Assembly: GCA_030602885.1 (NCBI GenBank)
Contig: JAUVYV010000017.1
Coordinates: 1-64,000, forward strand
Source of the DNA: Phycisphaerales bacterium
GTDB lineage: Bacteria; Planctomycetota; Phycisphaerae; Sedimentisphaerales; Anaerobacaceae
DNA: 64,000 nt
Direction of reading: 5' to 3'
Part shown: piece after piece, positions 28,211-41,183 of the stretch
Numbering within the stretch: position 1 is the first letter of the stretch
Layout: the number at the start of each line of letters is the position of its first letter
The notes under the pieces: generated by a model
The model's input: the letters and a program-made list of their open reading frames with translations, nothing else
Told to the model about the DNA's origin: nothing
The model's database searches: none
Program-made: the position numbers and the translations under genes

Positions 28211-28882
28211 TTAACTTCGCCTTTTTCTCAACAGCACAGCCGAGCTAAGACCGAGCACCAAAATTGTGGCCGGCTCGGGAATTGGGGTAATACTCCAACT
28301 GACGTTCAAAACCGCAGTTCCAGTGATTAGCGAAGCGGGATTTCGGCTGCCTATCGGGTCAACCCTCACCCCAAGAAACGCCCCTCCTCCGGCGAGAATC
28401 GCCTCTGCCTCGGCAAGAACGTCTATGCTGAAGCTGCCCGTCGTGCCGACCGTATAGCCCACGGTATCGACGTAAGTGGCCCCGCTGGAAAAATCGCCGA
28501 GATCGGCTGTGCCGTTACCGGAGTAGGTAAACAGATCGAACGCATGCAACTGCGGTTCCACAAGGTCCAACGCCTCGACTTCAAAATCAAACGTCACCTC
28601 TGCGAGCGTCTGGCCGGCAAACGGACTCAAATCGTACTCCACAATTACGATGTCCTTATAAGCCGCATCCGCCGGCAAGCCGGCAACCATGCTTGCGAGC
28701 AGACCCGAGTCACTGTTGAAGCCGTCGCCACCGCCGTCAATCGGCCCGTCGTGAATGCTTGCCCAGGCCGAAGGTGTTACTGTTACCGCATGTGCGTCGT
28801 TCACTCCGGTCACTGCGGCGAGGAGCAGCACAGTCACTAAACGAAACACCGGCAAAAAAATCGATTGGCTCCGACTTCTCAT
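28211..28882 (-). CDS. Secreted protein with PEP-CTERM sorting signal
   Basis: From ATG 28882 (AAGGAG upstream) the protein has 223 residues. It has a signal peptide (about 1-32), a beta-rich domain of about 160 residues, and the C-terminal tripartite sorting signal: PEPAT, a hydrophobic segment (ILVLGLSSAVLL) and a basic end (RKRRS). PEP-CTERM proteins are processed by an exosortase, and are commonly exported to the surface or extracellular matrix; no exosortase gene is in the window. The passenger domain has no family I recognise. GTG 28888 is an alternative start. Confidence 0.88.
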   Translation of the reverse strand: MRSRSQSIFLPVFRLVTVLLLAAVTGVNDAHAVTVTPSAWASIHDGPIDGGGDGFNSDSGLLASMVAGLPADAAYKDIVIVEYDLSPFAGQTLAEVTFDFEVEALDLVEPQLHAFDLFTYSGNGTADLGDFSSGATYVDTVGYTVGTTGSFSIDVLAEAEAILAGGGAFLGVRVDPIGSRNPASLITGTAVLNVSWSITPIPEPATILVLGLSSAVLLRKRRS

Positions 28883-28888
28883 ACCCAC

Positions 28889-29285: not shown

Positions 29286-32249
29286 TTACGGACCTGCGGT
29301 GAGCCACTGGTCGGCAAAGATGACGAAGTCAAAGAGATCGACCCAGCCGCTGCCGTCAAGGTCTGCAGGATTCACCTTGCCGGGATCGTTGGTTGTCAGC
29401 TCGAAAGCGACGTCCCAACTCATGGCTTTAGGATCACCGAAGGGCGGCCACATGATGGGTTGGCCGCCGGCCCAGGAGGTGACGTTGACCATCGGCGGCC
29501 AGGGTTGAGGCTGCATGCTGACGGCGTCGTCTTCGAAGATGTGCTGCCTTGTCTTCCAGCCCCACTGATAGAAGTTCGGGTCGGCATAGTCCGCTGCGTT
29601 CCAAACAGGAGCGATGCTGAGCCAGTAAATCTGCGGGTCGCACGGGTCATCGTTGGGCTCCTGGAAGAACCATTCGTCCTCGCTGAGAAGTTGTGTGAAC
29701 TGGAAGCACGAGTCCATTGGGATATCGTTACCTGGATCGCACGGGTCCATATCGGGTGATAGGAATCGTGGGTCTCTGTCGTAGCCGGCAAAGTTCCAGA
29801 CGTATTTGGTGCAGTAGTTTTCCCAGACGAGGGTGCCCGGATGGCTGAACGTGAGCGGGTCACAGGGGTCGGGGTCTTTGACGTTCGTCCAGATGCCGAG
29901 ATGAAATGCCTGCGGCATAACCGGAGGTGGATGCGGCTGAGTCCAGCCGATGAACGAACCCCACCAGTGAACGTCGGTTACCGGCCGGTTGTCGTCGCAA
30001 GGCCAGTCATCGGCGACAAGGTTTGGCCCATAAAAGTCGGACCATTCATCCCAGCCGATGATGACCGGCGGGTCGCTGTTTGCATCGACAGGGATTGGCG
30101 GCTGGCTGTACTTGGTGTAGATACCTTTTTCGACGGTTGTCTTGGGCGTTATCATCAACCAGTGCCAGTAGTTCCAGAGGAACATCCAGTTGCCGGGTCC
30201 AGGCGCCGGGCTTGGTCCGCCGACCCAGTTGCCGTTTTCATCGCAGATAATCCACTGAACGGTAGTCAAGTTGAAGCCCGGGTTGTTCATGTAGGAGCTG
30301 GCCGTTGGTGTTGCTGCACCGACACCGGTTTTGGAGGTGTCGATTCTAATCGTGTTCGGCTGGTTCCAGATAAGCGGCGTGCCGCTGCCCGGTGCCCCGC
30401 AGTTCCAGTACCACGCGCGCATCGGTCCGCCGAGCATCGGGTTGTTCTGCAGGCCGAGTGAGACCTGGGTAATTGCACCGCTGGGGCCGAACTGCGGAGG
30501 TGTCACCGTGACGGTGATGATGCAGTTTGTCAGATCCGGGTCTTTGTTGTACTTGAGCTGCCAGGCGGTTCCGAAATCGCCGGGCGCATCGTCGCCCCAG
30601 GCCATAACAAGTCCGTCATCATTGGGCTCATAGCCGCCCGCGCCGTTACCATCCCAGGTATAGAGCGTCGCCGGGTAGAACTCGGTCGTAGGATAAGGCT
30701 CTGTCTCGGGGTCGTGGTAGAGCAACCACTGTATCCAGTGGTCGTCCCACTGCGCGGGGTCGAGGGGCAGGACCTTGCCCTGCTCGTATGCGTTCTGCCA
30801 TTCGTCAAGGGTGTCTATCATAAGGAATGGGCTGAGCTTTTTGTCTTCTGCGACGACCATGGTTTCCATTGTGGCGCTTACCTGAGTGCCGTTTTCGGTC
30901 AGATAGACATTGCCCGGTACGACCTGAGGCGTTTTTGCTTTGACCTTCCAATCGGTGTACTTTCCTTCATTGGTGATTTCGTCGCCGGTATTGGCCTCGT
31001 AGCCGTAGCGTTTGATGAACCATGATCCCCCAAACCAGTTGGGCGGCGGAATTATTTCCACGTAGCCGGGGACGATGTGGGGTGCTTCGATTTCGAGGTC
31101 GCTTATATACATTAGCTGCGGGTCCCACTCAGTGATATTGAGCTCCCAGGAGTGCTCGTATGGGTATTCGCCGCCCACGTCGGTATAGCCGAGATAATCG
31201 AAGCTGAAGGTAAGCTCGTTCGGCTCGCGGTCAACTATCATAGTTGGCATCTGCTGACTGACAGGGACGTTCTTGTACGTCAGCTCGACGTGTCCGGGCA
31301 CCACTGCCGGGGTCTTGCCGTTTACTCTCCAGTCAATCCCCAAGCTGCCTCCGCCTGCGGTTATTTCAGCGCCGGGGTTGGCCTCGTAGCCGTAGCGGCC
31401 GTAGATAACGCCCTCACTTCCCCAGTTCGCCGGCGGGACGACCTGAACATAACCCGGATAGATAACCCAGGGCTCGACAACATCGATGTCGCTGATGATC
31501 TCGACATCGTTCCAGTCGTTTATTACCAGCTCCCAGATGTGCTGGTAGGGGTAATCGGGGTGCCTGGAGCCGACCCAGGAGAGGTCGTCCTGTGTGATAT
31601 AGTCCATATACATGAAGTCGAAATCCATGTTTTCGCCGGGCGCGGCTATTGTTATCTCTCCAATGACCTCAAGTGTTCCGGTGTAGGGGTCGAGGTTTTT
31701 CCAGCCCTCGTTGGGGTCGAAGGAGATGGGAGTGGTTCCGATGAGGTATCCCGGCAGGGGGGGGTCGAATGCCTCGCCGGCCGCGACAAGTACGAATGTT
31801 CCGGGTGAAACGGCAGCTCCGCTAAAGAGAAACTCGTTGATGTCGATAGCGACGAACAGAGGCGGGCCGGGCGCAGTGTGAGCAAGGTCGGCGAGGTGCT
31901 GAGGGATGAATCCGAAGTTTTCGCCGAGCCATGTGTTCAATTCGGCCAACTCATAGACGCCCTCGGCTTTTTCCTGGACAGCTCCGATGGAATGTTCGGC
32001 CGGGCCCGTAGCGGTGTCCTGCGCGACAGACAGGTCTGTAGCCCACCAGCCGCTGGTTACAGTGAGAGTGCTCCCTGCGGGCAGCCAGCCGTCGTAGATG
32101 GGGTCGCCAACGCGAAACCCGAAAAAGGTGTTCCAGACCCTGATGTCACTGCCACTGTCCTTGGTGATTGTGACCGTGGCGGCCAGGGCTGTCTGCGAAA
32201 GGCAGAATGTGACAAGCAGCACAACAATAAGAACTTTACATAACTTCAT
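29286..32249 (-). CDS. Large secreted protein with tandem modules and a dockerin-like tail
   Basis: The 987-residue protein starts with a clear signal peptide (LCKVLIVVLLVTFCLSQTALA) and has a GGAGG-type ribosome site. Two similar modules of about 115 residues lie at roughly 200-450; each contains the pattern PGYVxxxPPxNW, RYGYEANxGxEIT and VVPGxVxLT. The rest is rich in Trp, Pro and Asp with no family I recognise. The last 30 residues hold an EF-hand-like DLDGSGWVDLFDFVIFADQW, a dockerin type I half-repeat common in secreted Phycisphaerae proteins. It probably works outside the cell; a role in polysaccharide or matrix binding is a guess. Confidence 0.85.
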   Translation of the reverse strand: MKLCKVLIVVLLVTFCLSQTALAATVTITKDSGSDIRVWNTFFGFRVGDPIYDGWLPAGSTLTVTSGWWATDLSVAQDTATGPAEHSIGAVQEKAEGVYELAELNTWLGENFGFIPQHLADLAHTAPGPPLFVAIDINEFLFSGAAVSPGTFVLVAAGEAFDPPLPGYLIGTTPISFDPNEGWKNLDPYTGTLEVIGEITIAAPGENMDFDFMYMDYITQDDLSWVGSRHPDYPYQHIWELVINDWNDVEIISDIDVVEPWVIYPGYVQVVPPANWGSEGVIYGRYGYEANPGAEITAGGGSLGIDWRVNGKTPAVVPGHVELTYKNVPVSQQMPTMIVDREPNELTFSFDYLGYTDVGGEYPYEHSWELNITEWDPQLMYISDLEIEAPHIVPGYVEIIPPPNWFGGSWFIKRYGYEANTGDEITNEGKYTDWKVKAKTPQVVPGNVYLTENGTQVSATMETMVVAEDKKLSPFLMIDTLDEWQNAYEQGKVLPLDPAQWDDHWIQWLLYHDPETEPYPTTEFYPATLYTWDGNGAGGYEPNDDGLVMAWGDDAPGDFGTAWQLKYNKDPDLTNCIITVTVTPPQFGPSGAITQVSLGLQNNPMLGGPMRAWYWNCGAPGSGTPLIWNQPNTIRIDTSKTGVGAATPTASSYMNNPGFNLTTVQWIICDENGNWVGGPSPAPGPGNWMFLWNYWHWLMITPKTTVEKGIYTKYSQPPIPVDANSDPPVIIGWDEWSDFYGPNLVADDWPCDDNRPVTDVHWWGSFIGWTQPHPPPVMPQAFHLGIWTNVKDPDPCDPLTFSHPGTLVWENYCTKYVWNFAGYDRDPRFLSPDMDPCDPGNDIPMDSCFQFTQLLSEDEWFFQEPNDDPCDPQIYWLSIAPVWNAADYADPNFYQWGWKTRQHIFEDDAVSMQPQPWPPMVNVTSWAGGQPIMWPPFGDPKAMSWDVAFELTTNDPGKVNPADLDGSGWVDLFDFVIFADQWLTAGP

Positions 32250-32846
32250 TTCAAATCCTCCTAAAAAAACTTTCTGTTTTTCATTTGCCTTGTTTTACGA
32301 TGGGGAGGTAACTGTCTATGCCGATAGGGTAGGTCTGCGTTGGGGACGAAATCCTGTCGGGGTGCGGTACGACTTGGGACATACGAGCTCTCATACCACT
32401 CCTCGCCAAGCTCTTTTCCACAGTACCATGCATCTTGTACCTGCCCTTCCGATAAAAGTCAAGTTATTTCCTGGCAATCCGGTAATTTTTCCGAATCTCG
32501 CCCCCCCAGAGACCGCTATCCCCGGTGCGGCTCGAACGCACTACCTCCGGCCCCGCAGAACCGGACTTTGTCTTGTAAGTCTTTTTATGAAAAGCAGTTA
32601 TAACTACCAAATAAACACTTGTGGCCCTGGCCGCAACGCAACAAGAACCGAGCAGTACACCAGCCGACGGTAGTCGTCGCGCTCGCAAAAATTATTGACA
32701 TACGGCCCCGGCATCCCTTACGGCGATATCAGCAAAGAAGGTTTTCCCAAGAGAGTCTTTGAAAAGGATGGCCGGATTGTAATACAATAAAGTATCCTCG
32801 GTACACTAATCGGTCTTCATCGCATCCTTAAATGAGGAAGCTAAAG
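32250..32846. other. Gene-free region upstream of eda, holding a tRNA remnant
   Basis: No convincing gene lies here. The single recognisable element is a tRNA-like 3' fragment at 32517-32555, listed separately. The minus-strand promoter of the secreted-protein gene should lie near 32260-32320, and the eda promoter near 32720-32830, but no clear -35/-10 pair stands out. Confidence 0.5.
32517..32555 (-). pseudogene. tRNA-Arg 3' remnant
   Basis: Read on the minus strand, this copies the T arm and acceptor 3' strand of the tRNA-Arg gene at 33567-33640 with about four mismatches in 39 bases (both contain ctcgaacgcac and tatccccggtgcg on the plus strand). No matching 5' acceptor strand or D arm is found further along. 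It is exactly 1050 bases from the intact gene, with eda in between. Confidence 0.65.
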
Positions 32847-33566: not shown

Positions 33567-33640
33567 TATCCCCGGTGCGACTCGAACGCACAACCTCTGG
33601 CTCCGGAGGCCAACGCTCTATCCAATTGAGCTACGGGGAC
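33567..33640 (-). tRNA. tRNA-Arg (anticodon CCG)
   Basis: On the minus strand the 74-base gene folds as a full cloverleaf. The acceptor stem GTCCCCG pairs with CGGGGAT (the first pair is G-U), the D arm is GCTC...GAGC, and the anticodon stem TTGGC/GCCAG carries the loop CTCCGGA with anticodon CCG, reading the Arg codon CGG. The T arm is GTGCG-TTCGAGT-CGCAC and the discriminator base is A. CCA is not encoded. Confidence 0.93.
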
Positions 33641-33786
33641 CAAAATTCACATATTCATTACGCCAAAATCCGCCTCAAGTCAAGACCATATCGCCCGGCT
33701 ACGGCAGATGACACGCTATTCGGCACTTTTTCCACGCACAAAATACCCTCATTTTGTTATAATAACCGGTAGAGAAAAAAACCGTG

Positions 33787-35418
33787 ATGAAAAGCTCAAA
33801 ATTGCCAGTTTACCCACGCCTGCTTAAGATACTATTGCTCATCGCCGTAGCGTGCCGGGCTTCTGTTGTCTTTGCAGACCGACCCGACTGGAAAAAAGAA
33901 CAAGTCAACTGGCGACTGCCCGGCGGAAACCGCGCCAAATCAATCAGATATCCAAAGGGCAAACAGCCCCCTACACTCGCAAGACCACGCGACCGCGCCA
34001 AACGCCCTATACAGAAAACCATCTACCTCGCTGGAACAACCGGCCCATCAATCCTGGCCAATGTTATTGAATCTCCACCAATAGACGGTTTCGTTCCCTG
34101 GACCGTCGTAGCCGTCACCAGGGATCGCCTTGAAGAGCTCGAACTCGAAGCCGTGCCGACAACCACTATCTCAAACAACCACCCCAATGACTATGACCCG
34201 CAAACCGATTATCGTCTCGGCATATTCGACACTGGTGCAAGCGCTCACCTTATGGGCAATGCCGACGCCGTGCAGTCGGAACTCTTCAGCAACGACCTCG
34301 TCTCTGAGAACCCCGTTTTCATCACCGGTGTAATCGACTCGGTCGAGGCATTGGTAAGCCAGCCGATAGGAATCTTCGTCGATGGCCTCGGTGCAATCGA
34401 CGGCGGCGGTCTTTTCTCGGACACTTCCGGAGTTGTCGGCATGACGAACACCGCCATCATCGTCGGAAAACCCGTCACACCACCGACACCCGACTTGCCC
34501 ACAGCCATCGGTACACCCCTGGCGGTCTATTACACCGCTGTAATCCGTAACGACCTGCAGGTCAGCGTCAGCCGCAACGGCCAACAATACGCAGGTCCGA
34601 AAGTCACCTTCCACGAGCACTACTCCGGTGCAATACCTGACTACTCTATCAGAGTCCCCCTCGAGTTAAGACCGCTCGGCGGCGCTTCGGTACAATACGT
34701 TCCCTACATCAATCTCTTCGATATCTTTGGAGACCTCTTCAACCTCGACTTCAGCACGCCACAGACGCCATCGGTCATCATGGGAAATCTCTCGCAAAGT
34801 GTTTTCTTCGTCCACAGTGTTGACCTTACCGAATCAGGCAACACCGCCATCGACAAAGACCGCTTCATGCTCGATACCGGCGCTCAGGTCACTGTCATCG
34901 GTTCGAGAATCGGCGCCAGACTCGCCCTCGACCCGGACTACCCCGACTTCGAAGTGAAGATACAGGACGTCACCGGCGCGGCAGACTGGTTCCCCTCATT
35001 CTACATCGATTCAATCAAAATCCCGGCGCTCGGCCAGTGGCTCGTATTCGAAAATGTCCCCGTCGTTCTCCTCGATGTCGCTTCACCCGAAGGCGGAACT
35101 CTCGACGGCATAATCGGAATGAACCTCTTGTCCTATTACAATCTCGTCCTTCGCGGTGGCGGCCTGTTCCTCCAGGACGACCCCAGCCTCGAACTCCAGT
35201 TCATCGGTATCCCCGGCGACATCGCCCCCGGAGACGGCGACGACATAGTCAATATCCCAGACATCGCATTCCTTGCAGAGCACTGGCTTCAAACTCCCGC
35301 TTCACCGGGCTGGAATTCCACCTGCGACCTCGCCCCCTTAGCCGATCCCGACGGCATAATCAACTTCCTCGACTTCGCAGCCCTGGCAAAATACTGGCAG
35401 TCGGCATATATACCATAA
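33787..35418 (+). CDS. Secreted two-lobed aspartic protease-like protein with dockerin-like tail
   Basis: From ATG 33787 the 543-residue protein has a signal peptide (to about residue 30), a basic linker, and two aspartic-protease active-site motifs: IFDTGASAH (D148) and MLDTGAQVTV (D363). Each is followed later by the matching hydrophobic-hydrophobic-Gly element (GVVGM near 216; GIIGMNLLS near 440). This is the layout of pepsin-like proteases, rare in bacteria. The C-terminus holds two dockerin-like EF-hand pieces (DDIVNIPDIAFLAEHW and DGIINFLDFAALAKYW). It probably digests proteins outside the cell or is carried to a surface complex. GTG 33784 is an alternative start. Confidence 0.85.
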   Translation: MKSSKLPVYPRLLKILLLIAVACRASVVFADRPDWKKEQVNWRLPGGNRAKSIRYPKGKQPPTLARPRDRAKRPIQKTIYLAGTTGPSILANVIESPPIDGFVPWTVVAVTRDRLEELELEAVPTTTISNNHPNDYDPQTDYRLGIFDTGASAHLMGNADAVQSELFSNDLVSENPVFITGVIDSVEALVSQPIGIFVDGLGAIDGGGLFSDTSGVVGMTNTAIIVGKPVTPPTPDLPTAIGTPLAVYYTAVIRNDLQVSVSRNGQQYAGPKVTFHEHYSGAIPDYSIRVPLELRPLGGASVQYVPYINLFDIFGDLFNLDFSTPQTPSVIMGNLSQSVFFVHSVDLTESGNTAIDKDRFMLDTGAQVTVIGSRIGARLALDPDYPDFEVKIQDVTGAADWFPSFYIDSIKIPALGQWLVFENVPVVLLDVASPEGGTLDGIIGMNLLSYYNLVLRGGGLFLQDDPSLELQFIGIPGDIAPGDGDDIVNIPDIAFLAEHWLQTPASPGWNSTCDLAPLADPDGIINFLDFAALAKYWQSAYIP

Positions 35419-35532
35419 GCTCCATAACCTCTGACTAAGCCCACCTTTCGCCGGTCGCTGTACCAATCAATCCTTTGACACGCTCCTGCTTTCCAAATAT
35501 CATTATATCTTCGTCCTTTGAAGAGATAGCTA

Positions 35533-36819
35533 ATGAAAATGCTGATTGATTTTGCATACTTACTTACCGCCGTTGCCATAAGTCCCGTTGTCCTGTACCG
35601 GATGGCCAGGCACAAACGCTATCGCATCGGCTGGTCAAATCGCCTCGGCAAAATCGCCCGAAAACACCCCGACAAAAAATGCATCTGGATTCACGCCGTC
35701 AGCGTAGGCGAAGTAAACGCTACTAAAACCATCGTCACCGGATTACAGGACAAATTCCCCAATTACGAAATCGTCATCAGCACCACCACCGACACCGGCT
35801 TTGCCCGTGCAAACAAGCTCTACAGCGACCAGTTCGCCGTCTTCTTTTTCCCGCTCGACTTCTCGCCTGTAATGCAACGTGCCTTTGAAAGCATCCAACC
35901 CGACCTGTGCCTGCTGATGGAGCTGGAGGTCTGGCCCAACTTCACACAAATTGCGCACAATTCGAATATCCCCGTCGTCGTCGTCAACGGCAGAATCAGC
36001 GACAACAGTCTCGGCAAATACAAGCTCGCAAAGCCGCTGATGAAAAAGATATTTCAGAACGTAACTCTCATCCTCGCTCAGACCGCTGAATACGCCGACC
36101 GCTTCAAGGCAATCGGCGCACCCGCCGAAAAAGTAATCGTCACCGGCTCACTAAAATACGACACCGCCCAAATCGCCGACAGGGTCGCCGGCGCAGATGA
36201 GCTGGCAACACAACTTAATCTGGGAAAAGAGCCGTTTTGGATCGCAGGTGCTACCGGAAACGATGAGGAAAAAATAATCCTCGACGTACACAAAAAGCTC
36301 ACCGTCCAATTCCCACTCCTGCGCCTTGCAATAGTCCCCCGAAAACCCGAACGATTCAACGAAGTCGCCCAACTGATACAACAAGCCGACTTCGACCTTA
36401 TCCGATACAGCAGGATAAAGGAAGGATACAGCCCACCCCACGAGAGCAAACAGGCAGTCATATTAGGCGATACAATGGGTGATTTGCGAAAGTTCTATTC
36501 GCTCGCCACGGTGATTTTCGTAGGCCGCTCACTGGTGCCCATGGGCGGCTCCGATATGATAGAAGCCGCCGCCTTAGGCAAAACCACTATCTTCGGCCCG
36601 CACGCATTCAACTTCAACCACACCGTCAACGTCCTGCTAAAGGGCAGCGGCGCAATCCTGGTTAAAGATGGCCACGAACTGCTCGAATCTATACAAAAAT
36701 GCCTCACCGACCCCCACTACGCCGCACAAATCGCCCAACAAGGCCAAAACGTTATCCGAAACAACCAGGGTGCCACACAAAAAACTATCAACGAGATTCA
36801 AAAGCTCTTGGCCGACTAA
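35533..36819 (+). CDS. waaA: 3-deoxy-D-manno-octulosonic acid (Kdo) transferase
   Basis: WaaA (GT30) adds Kdo to the lipid A precursor at the inner membrane, so the organism probably makes lipopolysaccharide. The 428-residue protein has an N-terminal membrane anchor (FAYLLTAVAISPVVLYRM), IWIHAVSVGEVNATKTIV with the catalytic Glu, LMELEVWPNF, and the sugar-nucleotide motif MGGSDMIEAAALGKTTIFGP. Length and order match the family. It ends four bases inside the convergent homocysteine methyltransferase gene. Confidence 0.95.
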   Translation: MKMLIDFAYLLTAVAISPVVLYRMARHKRYRIGWSNRLGKIARKHPDKKCIWIHAVSVGEVNATKTIVTGLQDKFPNYEIVISTTTDTGFARANKLYSDQFAVFFFPLDFSPVMQRAFESIQPDLCLLMELEVWPNFTQIAHNSNIPVVVVNGRISDNSLGKYKLAKPLMKKIFQNVTLILAQTAEYADRFKAIGAPAEKVIVTGSLKYDTAQIADRVAGADELATQLNLGKEPFWIAGATGNDEEKIILDVHKKLTVQFPLLRLAIVPRKPERFNEVAQLIQQADFDLIRYSRIKEGYSPPHESKQAVILGDTMGDLRKFYSLATVIFVGRSLVPMGGSDMIEAAALGKTTIFGPHAFNFNHTVNVLLKGSGAILVKDGHELLESIQKCLTDPHYAAQIAQQGQNVIRNNQGATQKTINEIQKLLAD

Positions 36820-39291: not shown

Positions 39292-39708
39292 TCAATCGAA
39301 CCGGAGGAATGCACACATGCCCACAACCGTTTTTGGCCCGATGCCCCTGACTTTCTGCAGGTCTTGGCAATCCTCGAAAGCCCGCCCACCTCGGCCCTGT
39401 CCAACCACACCTTCACGGTATGCAACTATCGAATTCGCCTTGCTAATTCCTATTCCCGGCAGTCTCACTAAGCTGCCCACGGGCGCATCATTCGGATTGA
39501 TTCTCCTCTCGGCGGTAATCTCCCCCGACTCACCACACCTCCACAACCATGGCGCCTCGAAGCCGGCAGAAAGCAAAACACCCATCCAAACCGCGATAAC
39601 AAGCGCAAAAAGCTCGATTCCGCTCTGTTCGGCCCTTTGTGAAGTAATCAAGCCGCCAGTCCCGGTCATCCTTGTCTGGTTTCCTCTTTCCGTCACTCGT
39701 TCGGTCAC
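39292..39708 (-). CDS. ComEA-like helix-hairpin-helix protein
   Basis: The 138-residue protein has a membrane segment (ELFALVIAVWMGVLLSAGF) and a C-terminal helix-hairpin-helix pair: VRLPGIGISKANSIVAYRE and VRGIGPKTVVGM. This layout matches ComEA-type DNA-uptake proteins, which bind double-stranded DNA outside the membrane. The start is GTG 39708, and its first base is the last base of the upstream stop codon (TAGTG), so translation is coupled to the GH10-like gene. ComEC or pilus genes are not in the window. Confidence 0.8.
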   Translation of the reverse strand: MTERVTERGNQTRMTGTGGLITSQRAEQSGIELFALVIAVWMGVLLSAGFEAPWLWRCGESGEITAERRINPNDAPVGSLVRLPGIGISKANSIVAYREGVVGQGRGGRAFEDCQDLQKVRGIGPKTVVGMCAFLRFD

Positions 39709-41183
39709 TACCTGCTGTAGATGGTATGACGCAGTTTCCTGAGCACATCATACGACTTCTTCGGCTCAAGCTTCGCCGTCAAAAGACCGCTGTTGGCTAT
39801 CATGCTCCCATCGGTGTCACTCAGATTCGAGTACACAACAGCATCCACGAAGGGCTTACTAAGCGCTATCCGATAAAACTGCTCCAGCCACTCTCCCTGA
39901 CGTGTCTCGTCCCATGCTTTGTGCCACAGCCCTGCAGCTTCCGGCGCATGCGGCCCGGAACCGTTCTTGCTCGGCACCTCTACGCCCGTTATGTAAAGGG
40001 ACTTTGCTATCGGCGCAAGATAATCCAGTATCGCCGATATCTGCATCATATCCCGAACGTGCATCCCCGCCTCGTCTTTCCCAAAACACATCTGAAGACC
40101 AAACGCATCAAAGTCTATACCACTCTGAACCACCATATCCATATAAACCAGCGGCGGAATCGTATCCGGAACACTCGCATAGTACTCTCCCCACGCATTT
40201 GTCACCTCGATTATCTTCACCGCACGATCCGTCGCCGCCTTCACCGCCATCGTCCCGGCTCGCGTTATCTCAAGTATCTGCTCAAACCCAAAACCAAAAT
40301 GATTGAACACGTTCAAACCCTTTATCGCGCACCACGCTCGGATAATCGCAGCGTAACGCGCAACCGTCGTCGCAACAAACTGATATGCGCTCTCACGTAT
40401 CTTCTCAAAGCTCGCCCCGTCCTGCACCAGCCACGCCGGAAGGTGCTCCCTGCTGAAGCACAAAAGTGGACCCGCACCCAACGCCATCTTCCGCTTGCCA
40501 AGTACATTCACGCACGCATCTATCTTCGAAAAATCGTAGCTGCCCCTCTCAACCTCTATTCGACCCCACTCCATCGGGATTATCGCAAAGCTGAACAGAT
40601 TCAGAAAACGCTCCACGTACTTCGCATTCGATATCTGCTCCGGATTCACCCGGCAGCCAAGACAAACACGTCCGAAACCGTGGCTTTTGCCTCGCGCACT
40701 AAACAACAGCTTTGCCTGCCGGGCCGCCAAACGCTCCGAAAATATCATCCCCTTCTTCAGAGATTCGTCCGCAAGCTTCGACGCCACCGACGAATCCGAT
40801 ATCTTCTGAATCGCCTCTATGAAAAGCCGCTGAGCATCCTCCCCAAGCTCATGTAAACCCTCCATCGCGTCAAAAAACGACCAGTCCTCACGCTTCTGCA
40901 CTATCTGCATCAGCTTCGCACGCGCTATCTCCAGATTCAGATTATACGGTTCCGCTCGTTCCGGAAGGCACGTCGTCGGCAAAAGAACCTTCCCGAAACC
41001 TTCCACCGGCCAGAGCAACGCCAGCCCCGCTGTCTCGAGATTCGCCCTGCCAAACTCAATCACACCCCCGTTAAACTCTATCCCAACTCGCCGCACCACC
41101 ATCCCGTCGCTGCCGAATACGTACGCACCATGCAGAGCGAACTCCTCACAGACCTTGCCGTTCTTGAATACTTGAAATCTCAC
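39708..41183 (-). CDS. GH10 endoxylanase-like protein with a missing acid/base Glu
   Basis: The 491-residue protein has an N-terminal beta-rich domain (about 1-170) and a TIM barrel like glycoside hydrolase family 10: VNPEQISN, WGRIEVERGSYDFSKID, DFDAFGLQMCF and YITGVEVPSKN with a nucleophile-like E402. At the place of the acid/base motif (usually WDVVNE) it reads RAWCAIKGLN, with no Glu, so normal xylanase activity is doubtful. It has no signal peptide, again unusual for GH10. It may be a carbohydrate-binding or non-classical enzyme. Its stop overlaps the next start (TAGTG). Confidence 0.78.
   Translation of the reverse strand: MRFQVFKNGKVCEEFALHGAYVFGSDGMVVRRVGIEFNGGVIEFGRANLETAGLALLWPVEGFGKVLLPTTCLPERAEPYNLNLEIARAKLMQIVQKREDWSFFDAMEGLHELGEDAQRLFIEAIQKISDSSVASKLADESLKKGMIFSERLAARQAKLLFSARGKSHGFGRVCLGCRVNPEQISNAKYVERFLNLFSFAIIPMEWGRIEVERGSYDFSKIDACVNVLGKRKMALGAGPLLCFSREHLPAWLVQDGASFEKIRESAYQFVATTVARYAAIIRAWCAIKGLNVFNHFGFGFEQILEITRAGTMAVKAATDRAVKIIEVTNAWGEYYASVPDTIPPLVYMDMVVQSGIDFDAFGLQMCFGKDEAGMHVRDMMQISAILDYLAPIAKSLYITGVEVPSKNGSGPHAPEAAGLWHKAWDETRQGEWLEQFYRIALSKPFVDAVVYSNLSDTDGSMIANSGLLTAKLEPKKSYDVLRKLRHTIYSR

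Follow-up and report, generated by a model that had tools for sequence, protein, structure and literature searches.

The gene at positions 33787-35418, on the forward strand of the window (the whole 64,000-nucleotide stretch of DNA that was analysed), is translated in a single unbroken frame into a protein of 543 amino acids. Its start codon is the ATG at 33787, and a start at the GTG at 33784 would make the protein one residue longer. An earlier sequence-only reading of this frame had claimed two DTG motifs, a signal peptide and a dockerin-like tail, and all of these are present in the translation: the motifs are D148-T-G-A and D363-T-G-A, the N-terminus carries a hydrophobic signal, and the chain ends in a double dockerin-like repeat. 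We infer that the protein is exported. Upstream lies a tRNA-Arg(CCG) gene (33567-33640, minus strand), with a gene for KDPG aldolase upstream of the tRNA. The features of the gene and its downstream neighbor are as follows.

33787..35418, + strand: whole gene for a two-lobed, putatively exported aspartic protease homologue of 543 aa (translation; homologues in 81/161 genomes of the same order)
33787..33879, + strand: putative signal peptide, residues 1-31, with a hydrophobic helix at 9-28 followed by VVFA/D (sequence; helix 9-28 in the model; putative cleavage site)
33880..34041, + strand: N-terminal segment, residues 32-85, with strands 35-43 and 49-56 and then a low-confidence stretch (model secondary structure)
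34042..34572, + strand: N lobe, residues 86-262 (model, structural superposition, lobe-lobe profile alignment)
34228..34236, + strand: first catalytic-type motif, D148-T-G (D in 59/59 and DTGA in 55/59 homologues)
34300..34359, + strand: N-lobe flap-like hairpin, residues 172-191, strands 172-180 and 185-191 (G181 invariant; putative role)
34504..34512, + strand: A240-I241-G242, psi-loop partner of D148 (lobe-lobe profile alignment; BLAST in L126/L127)
34573..34761, + strand: inter-lobe connection, residues 263-325 (AF2 model)
34762..35208, + strand: C lobe, residues 326-474, with PF13650 at 359-446 (Pfam E 4.2e-11; all 33 scanned members match)
34873..34881, + strand: second catalytic-type motif, D363-T-G (DTGAQ in 58/59 and DAGAQ in 1/59 homologues)
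34948..35022, + strand: C-lobe flap-like hairpin, residues 388-412, strands 388-393 and 399-412, V-T-G at 395-397 (putative role)
35110..35118, + strand: I442-I443-G444, psi-loop partner of D363 (GIIGMN or close variants in all 59)
35209..35415, + strand: dockerin-like tail, residues 475-543, two degenerate EF-hand-like repeats (Pfam, profile match, model helices 490-498 and 527-535)
35533..36819, + strand: waaA/kdtA (Kdo transferase), next gene downstream (PF04413; synteny)

The protease gene and waaA are paired in 24 homologous loci; many other loci, some of them on short contigs, yielded no such pair. A promoter-like site of waaA's own is located at 35475-35503. With the pair not found at many loci and a separate promoter-like site present, no functional link to waaA was drawn. 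Within the protein, residues 32-85 are weakly conserved (mean entropy 2.48 bits in the 59-member alignment), with pLDDT values of 66-75 at residues 61-80 of the AF2 model, and could be either a mature N-terminal strand or a propeptide-like segment.

Conservation was assessed in an alignment of 59 members, made up of the query and homologues sharing 28-52% identity with it. Every one of the 59 has both D148 and D363, Thr149 and Thr364 are kept in nearly all, G150, G365, G444 and N446 are also invariant, and G242 is near-invariant. When the protein sequence was shuffled, two DTG[A/S] motifs turned up in just 11 of 20,000 trials, and because D148 and D363 are conserved throughout and DTGAQ in 58 of the 59, the paired motif is far beyond chance. 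We infer that the protein has proteolytic activity. An inactive homologue of the binding type, using the fold as a scaffold or receptor without cleaving peptides, might be suspected from L081 (the same gene as L043), whose C-lobe motif reads DAG, unusual for an active enzyme. Retention of both Asp residues and nearly all of the Thr residues down to 28% identity argues against loss of catalysis, which we regard as improbable.

Each DTG motif had also been credited with a later hydrophobic-Gly partner. This holds for both lobes, but the N-lobe partner is A240-I241-G242 (in TAIGTP) and not the nearer V216-V217-G218, a candidate that was ruled out since the lobe alignment and secondary structure favor the former. 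TAIGTPL in the N lobe pairs with GIIGMNL in the C lobe in the profile alignment of lobes, and in the model each of these stretches forms a short strand that leads into a short helix. Of the two flap-like hairpins, that of the C lobe carries a near-invariant glycine, G397. In the 59-member sequence alignment, the N-lobe hairpin (172-195) shows no conserved Tyr as a candidate for Tyr75 of the pepsin flap.

AlphaFold2, run with the family alignment, scored the full protein at pLDDT 89.6 and pTM 0.84; for the core (residues 86-474) the values were 92.6 and 0.90. In superpositions of this core, the tethered HIV-1 protease dimers 4ep2 (Z 14.3, 2.9 A, 192 of 198 residues) and 3ka2 (Z 14.2, 3.2 A, 198 of 203 residues) fit closely; such dimers overall aligned over 192-198 of 198-203 residues at 2.9-3.3 A, with both lobes in one superposition. 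Pepsins, renins and plasmepsins aligned over 243-258 residues at 3.7-4.2 A (Z 13.5-14.1). The closest structural match was PDB 9iy9, a putative endopeptidase of Bacteroides fragilis (Z 15.9, 238 residues, 3.5 A). Foldseek's own superpositions were looser, with rmsd values of 6-14 A and TM-scores of 0.30-0.43 by query length, and the tight structural fit therefore rests on VIA-align. Because one superposition spans both lobes, the DTG loops appear to be placed as in a dimer, and on the strength of the model D148 and D363 should face each other in one chain.

These results agree with the two-lobed aspartic protease fold that had been proposed for the single chain. The opposite outcome had been envisaged as well, namely that the two Asp residues do not face each other or belong to separate dimerizing domains, and neither arrangement occurs in the model. 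Either lobe alone does resemble one retropepsin protomer, which is what would be expected of two separate retropepsin domains each dimerizing with another molecule. However, a single confident model puts the lobes in an intramolecular dimer arrangement, and the motifs of the two lobes differ consistently (DTGAS and DTGAQ), as expected of a fixed heterodimer, so that pairing between molecules seems very unlikely. The engineered tethered HIV-1 protease dimers (4ep2, 3ka2, 1hvc) likewise have two retropepsin lobes in one chain. Those proteins are artificial and symmetric, whereas this one occurs in nature, its lobes are not identical, and it has long inserts and an inter-lobe connection of about 60 residues.

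The two lobes are related to each other in sequence. HHalign of the N lobe (86-262) against the C lobe (326-474) gave a probability of 95%, compared with 0.1-0.4% for reversed, column-shuffled and unrelated-segment controls, and with the DTG columns masked the lobes still align over 94 columns (E 5e-4). L126 and L127 are distant members that end in PEP-CTERM tails. The motif is DTGAQV in each of their lobes, and the similarity is detected by BLASTP of lobe against lobe, at E 2.1e-5 in L127 and 4.4e-4 in L126, over a span running from the DTG to past the psi-loop Gly. Based on the lobe-lobe HHalign result, the masked alignment and the BLASTP matches, the most likely origin of the protein is a single lobe that was duplicated and fused. 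The C lobe is of the retropepsin type represented by PF13650, and the N lobe, judged by its sequence, is a diverged duplicate of that lobe.

The sequence-only reading had described the layout as pepsin-like, and in part this stands: there are two lobes in one chain, with one Asp each. Membership in the pepsin family was not borne out. PF00026 (pepsin family A1) had no match at E <= 0.1 in 33 members, and the sole recognized catalytic domain is the retropepsin-type PF13650 (Asp_protease_2), found on the C lobe with 43.9 bits against a cut-off of 24.3 and matching 33 of 33 members scanned at E <= 0.1. The gag-asp_proteas family is a lower-ranked Pfam match on the same C-lobe region. When the N lobe was compared with PF13650 it fell below the cut-off in all four members tested (best E 0.0048, 18.0 bits), and both lobes possess a flap-like hairpin.

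It could still be argued that the protein is a true bacterial member of pepsin family A1, similar to the shewasins and diverged beyond the reach of the Pfam model. As in A1 enzymes, the bacterial shewasins included, each of two lobes in the one chain contributes an Asp, and the core can be superposed on pepsins, renins and plasmepsins at Z of about 13-14 over about 250 residues. Several observations nevertheless make this unlikely. PF13650 rather than PF00026 is matched throughout the members scanned; DTGA is found in both lobes; and the fit to the tethered HIV-protease dimers covers more of the structure, at a lower rmsd, than the fit to the pepsins. In pepsin, sequence similarity between the lobes is confined to the DTG and hydrophobic-hydrophobic-Gly motifs (Rawlings and Bateman, PMC2761423), whereas the lobes compared here are alike over 94-98 columns. 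Moreover, the known bacterial A1 homologues are all predicted to be intracellular (PMC2761423), while a signal peptide is present here. Because the lobe similarity exceeds the motif-only similarity of pepsin, and PF00026 is unmatched in the 33 members, we place the protein outside family A1, as a clan-AA protease homologue with two lobes, nearest in kind to the retropepsins.

The likeness to retropepsins and other PF13650 proteins, to the Rickettsia protease APRc, which has retropepsin-like properties (PMC4140852), and to RloA of Pseudomonas, which was shown to be a homodimer (PMC12239564), extends to the lobe fold, DTGA, the psi-loop Gly partner and the flap-like hairpin. Retropepsins, APRc and RloA, however, have one lobe per chain, whereas here two diverged lobes are fused; family A2 retropepsins are single-lobe homodimers, and this protein carries its two lobes in one 543-aa chain. 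The Bacteroides structure 9iy9 resembles it in having both lobes in one chain, within residues 177-437, but differs in an extra N-terminal region of about 180 residues and has no detectable sequence match to it. Among the papers searched on 9iy9, on a two-lobed Bacteroides enzyme and on planctomycete aspartic proteases, none dealt with this family. A weak phmmer match to haemolysin (E 0.085) was taken as chance.

Alignment queries of the genome contigs recovered 66 loci; an earlier search of contigs with the single protein by DNA patterns had given no match. Among the better genomes of the order 36 of 66 have a homologue, the total being the 81 of 161 given above. Profile searches found homologues in about a third of the genomes sampled from the class, many through the C lobe only, and almost none in the rest of the phylum. 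Named homologue records come from Sedimentisphaerales, Phycisphaerales and related Planctomycetota metagenome assemblies, and no second PF13650 protein was found in the genome under study. Two D[T/S]G motifs also occur in the distant Phycisphaerae relatives L016, L017 and L126-L130, several of which have PEP-CTERM-like ends, and for this reason the bilobed architecture is wider than the orthologous group. We lean slightly towards the view that a planctomycete lineage duplicated and fused a retropepsin-type lobe independently of the pepsin event, giving rise to a natural tethered retropepsin whose lobes can still be recognized as duplicates in distant relatives.

The C-terminal tail (D-I-A-P...V-N-x-x-D and D-L-A-P...I-N-x-x-D) had been read as a possible means of attachment to a surface complex. 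Like type I dockerins and the 'GC-type dockerin' NCBIfam model NF041540, which matches 22 of 33 members at E <= 0.1, it has two EF-hand-like repeats at the C-terminus, and the family tail profile matches solved cellulosomal dockerins (E 7.6e-5). In contrast to type I dockerins, its Pfam Dockerin_1 (PF00404) score is below the cut-off (12.9 versus 22.9 bits; 13 of 33 members match at E <= 0.1), its loop spacing is altered, to D-I-A-P-x-x-x-D-G from the dockerin D-x-N-x-D-G, and the genome holds no Pfam cohesin. For cohesin (PF00963) there was no match in the genome, an assembly that is 97.6% complete, even at E <= 1, and among the 159 genomes of the order searched a match was found in 9 and none in 150. 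In nine aligned members the chain stops shortly after the second lobe, with both Asp residues kept; together with one further tail-less sequence they form a single clade in the family tree (support 100/99). The idea that the tail-less homologues come from genomes without dockerin-like domains was rejected, as each such genome has 6-16 Dockerin_1 matches.

A cohesin/dockerin peptidase complex has been hypothesized for some planctomycetes (PMC6461901), and a true dockerin docking the protease on a cohesin scaffold, in a 'planctosome'-like peptidase complex, would accord with the profile match to cellulosomal dockerins and with the nine genomes of the order that do have a cohesin match. We nonetheless consider such docking unlikely here, given the altered loop, the cohesin searches and a tail-less clade whose genomes keep other dockerin-like domains; the proposal of cohesin-based surface attachment is thus not upheld for this genome. 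The tail is probably not part of a cellulosome; in other members of the phylum a cohesin scaffold may take up such proteins. Since about 20 other open reading frames of the genome have similar tails, no Pfam cohesin was found and one clade of homologues has lost the tail, it is a general, dispensable accessory module.

Related C-terminal elements were observed elsewhere. A 987-aa DUF7901 (PF25470) protein at 29286-32249 (minus strand) ends in a single dockerin-like half repeat (PADLDGSGWVDLFDFVIFADQWL), and the tail motif therefore also occurs as one repeat. L126, L127 and L129 have a PEP-CTERM-like end after a double repeat. A 225-aa protein at 28211-28888 (minus strand) has a C-terminal PEP-CTERM-like motif just below the Pfam cut-off, so that this genome probably has both PEP-CTERM sorting and dockerin-like tails.

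Taken as a whole, the gene probably encodes an exported, single-chain, two-lobed clan-AA aspartic protease derived from a retropepsin-like (PF13650) lobe that was duplicated and fused. We propose that the protein would first be exported by the Sec pathway, and that each lobe would present one DTG loop, D148 or D363, held by its own psi-loop Gly partner. The two Asp residues, opposed across the cleft, would activate a water molecule for general acid-base catalysis, and a peptide substrate held under the two flap-like hairpins (172-191 and 388-412) would then be cleaved. The dockerin-like tail may serve as an accessory surface-retention or folding module, common to many secreted proteins of these bacteria and dispensable for catalysis. 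The presence of DTGA, rather than DTGS or DTGT, in both lobes, as in retropepsins, suggests a predicted pH optimum that is mildly acidic to neutral and less acidic than that of pepsin; this argument from DTGA to pH optimum draws on retropepsins and renin.

Pepsin is thought to come from a duplicated and fused single lobe, and its lobes are too diverged for this to be read from their sequences. Fused retropepsin-like lobes in one bacterial chain mirror that supposed origin, and a bilobed bacterial family with alignable lobes opens the duplication-fusion route to direct study. The bacterial examples described so far have been A1 homologues predicted to be intracellular or homodimeric retropepsin-like enzymes, to which the present protein adds a bilobed, presumably exported aspartic protease outside A1.

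Two further observations concern the surrounding DNA. At 39708-41183 (minus strand) there is a divergent GH10-like protein (PF00331, E 2.1e-7) with no evident signal peptide. Beyond the KDPG aldolase gene, 1,050 bp away from the intact tRNA-Arg(CCG) gene, a 42-nt stretch (32517-32558) is 88% identical to the 3′ part of that tRNA gene (33567-33608), and has the look of a leftover tRNA piece or a duplicated attachment site.
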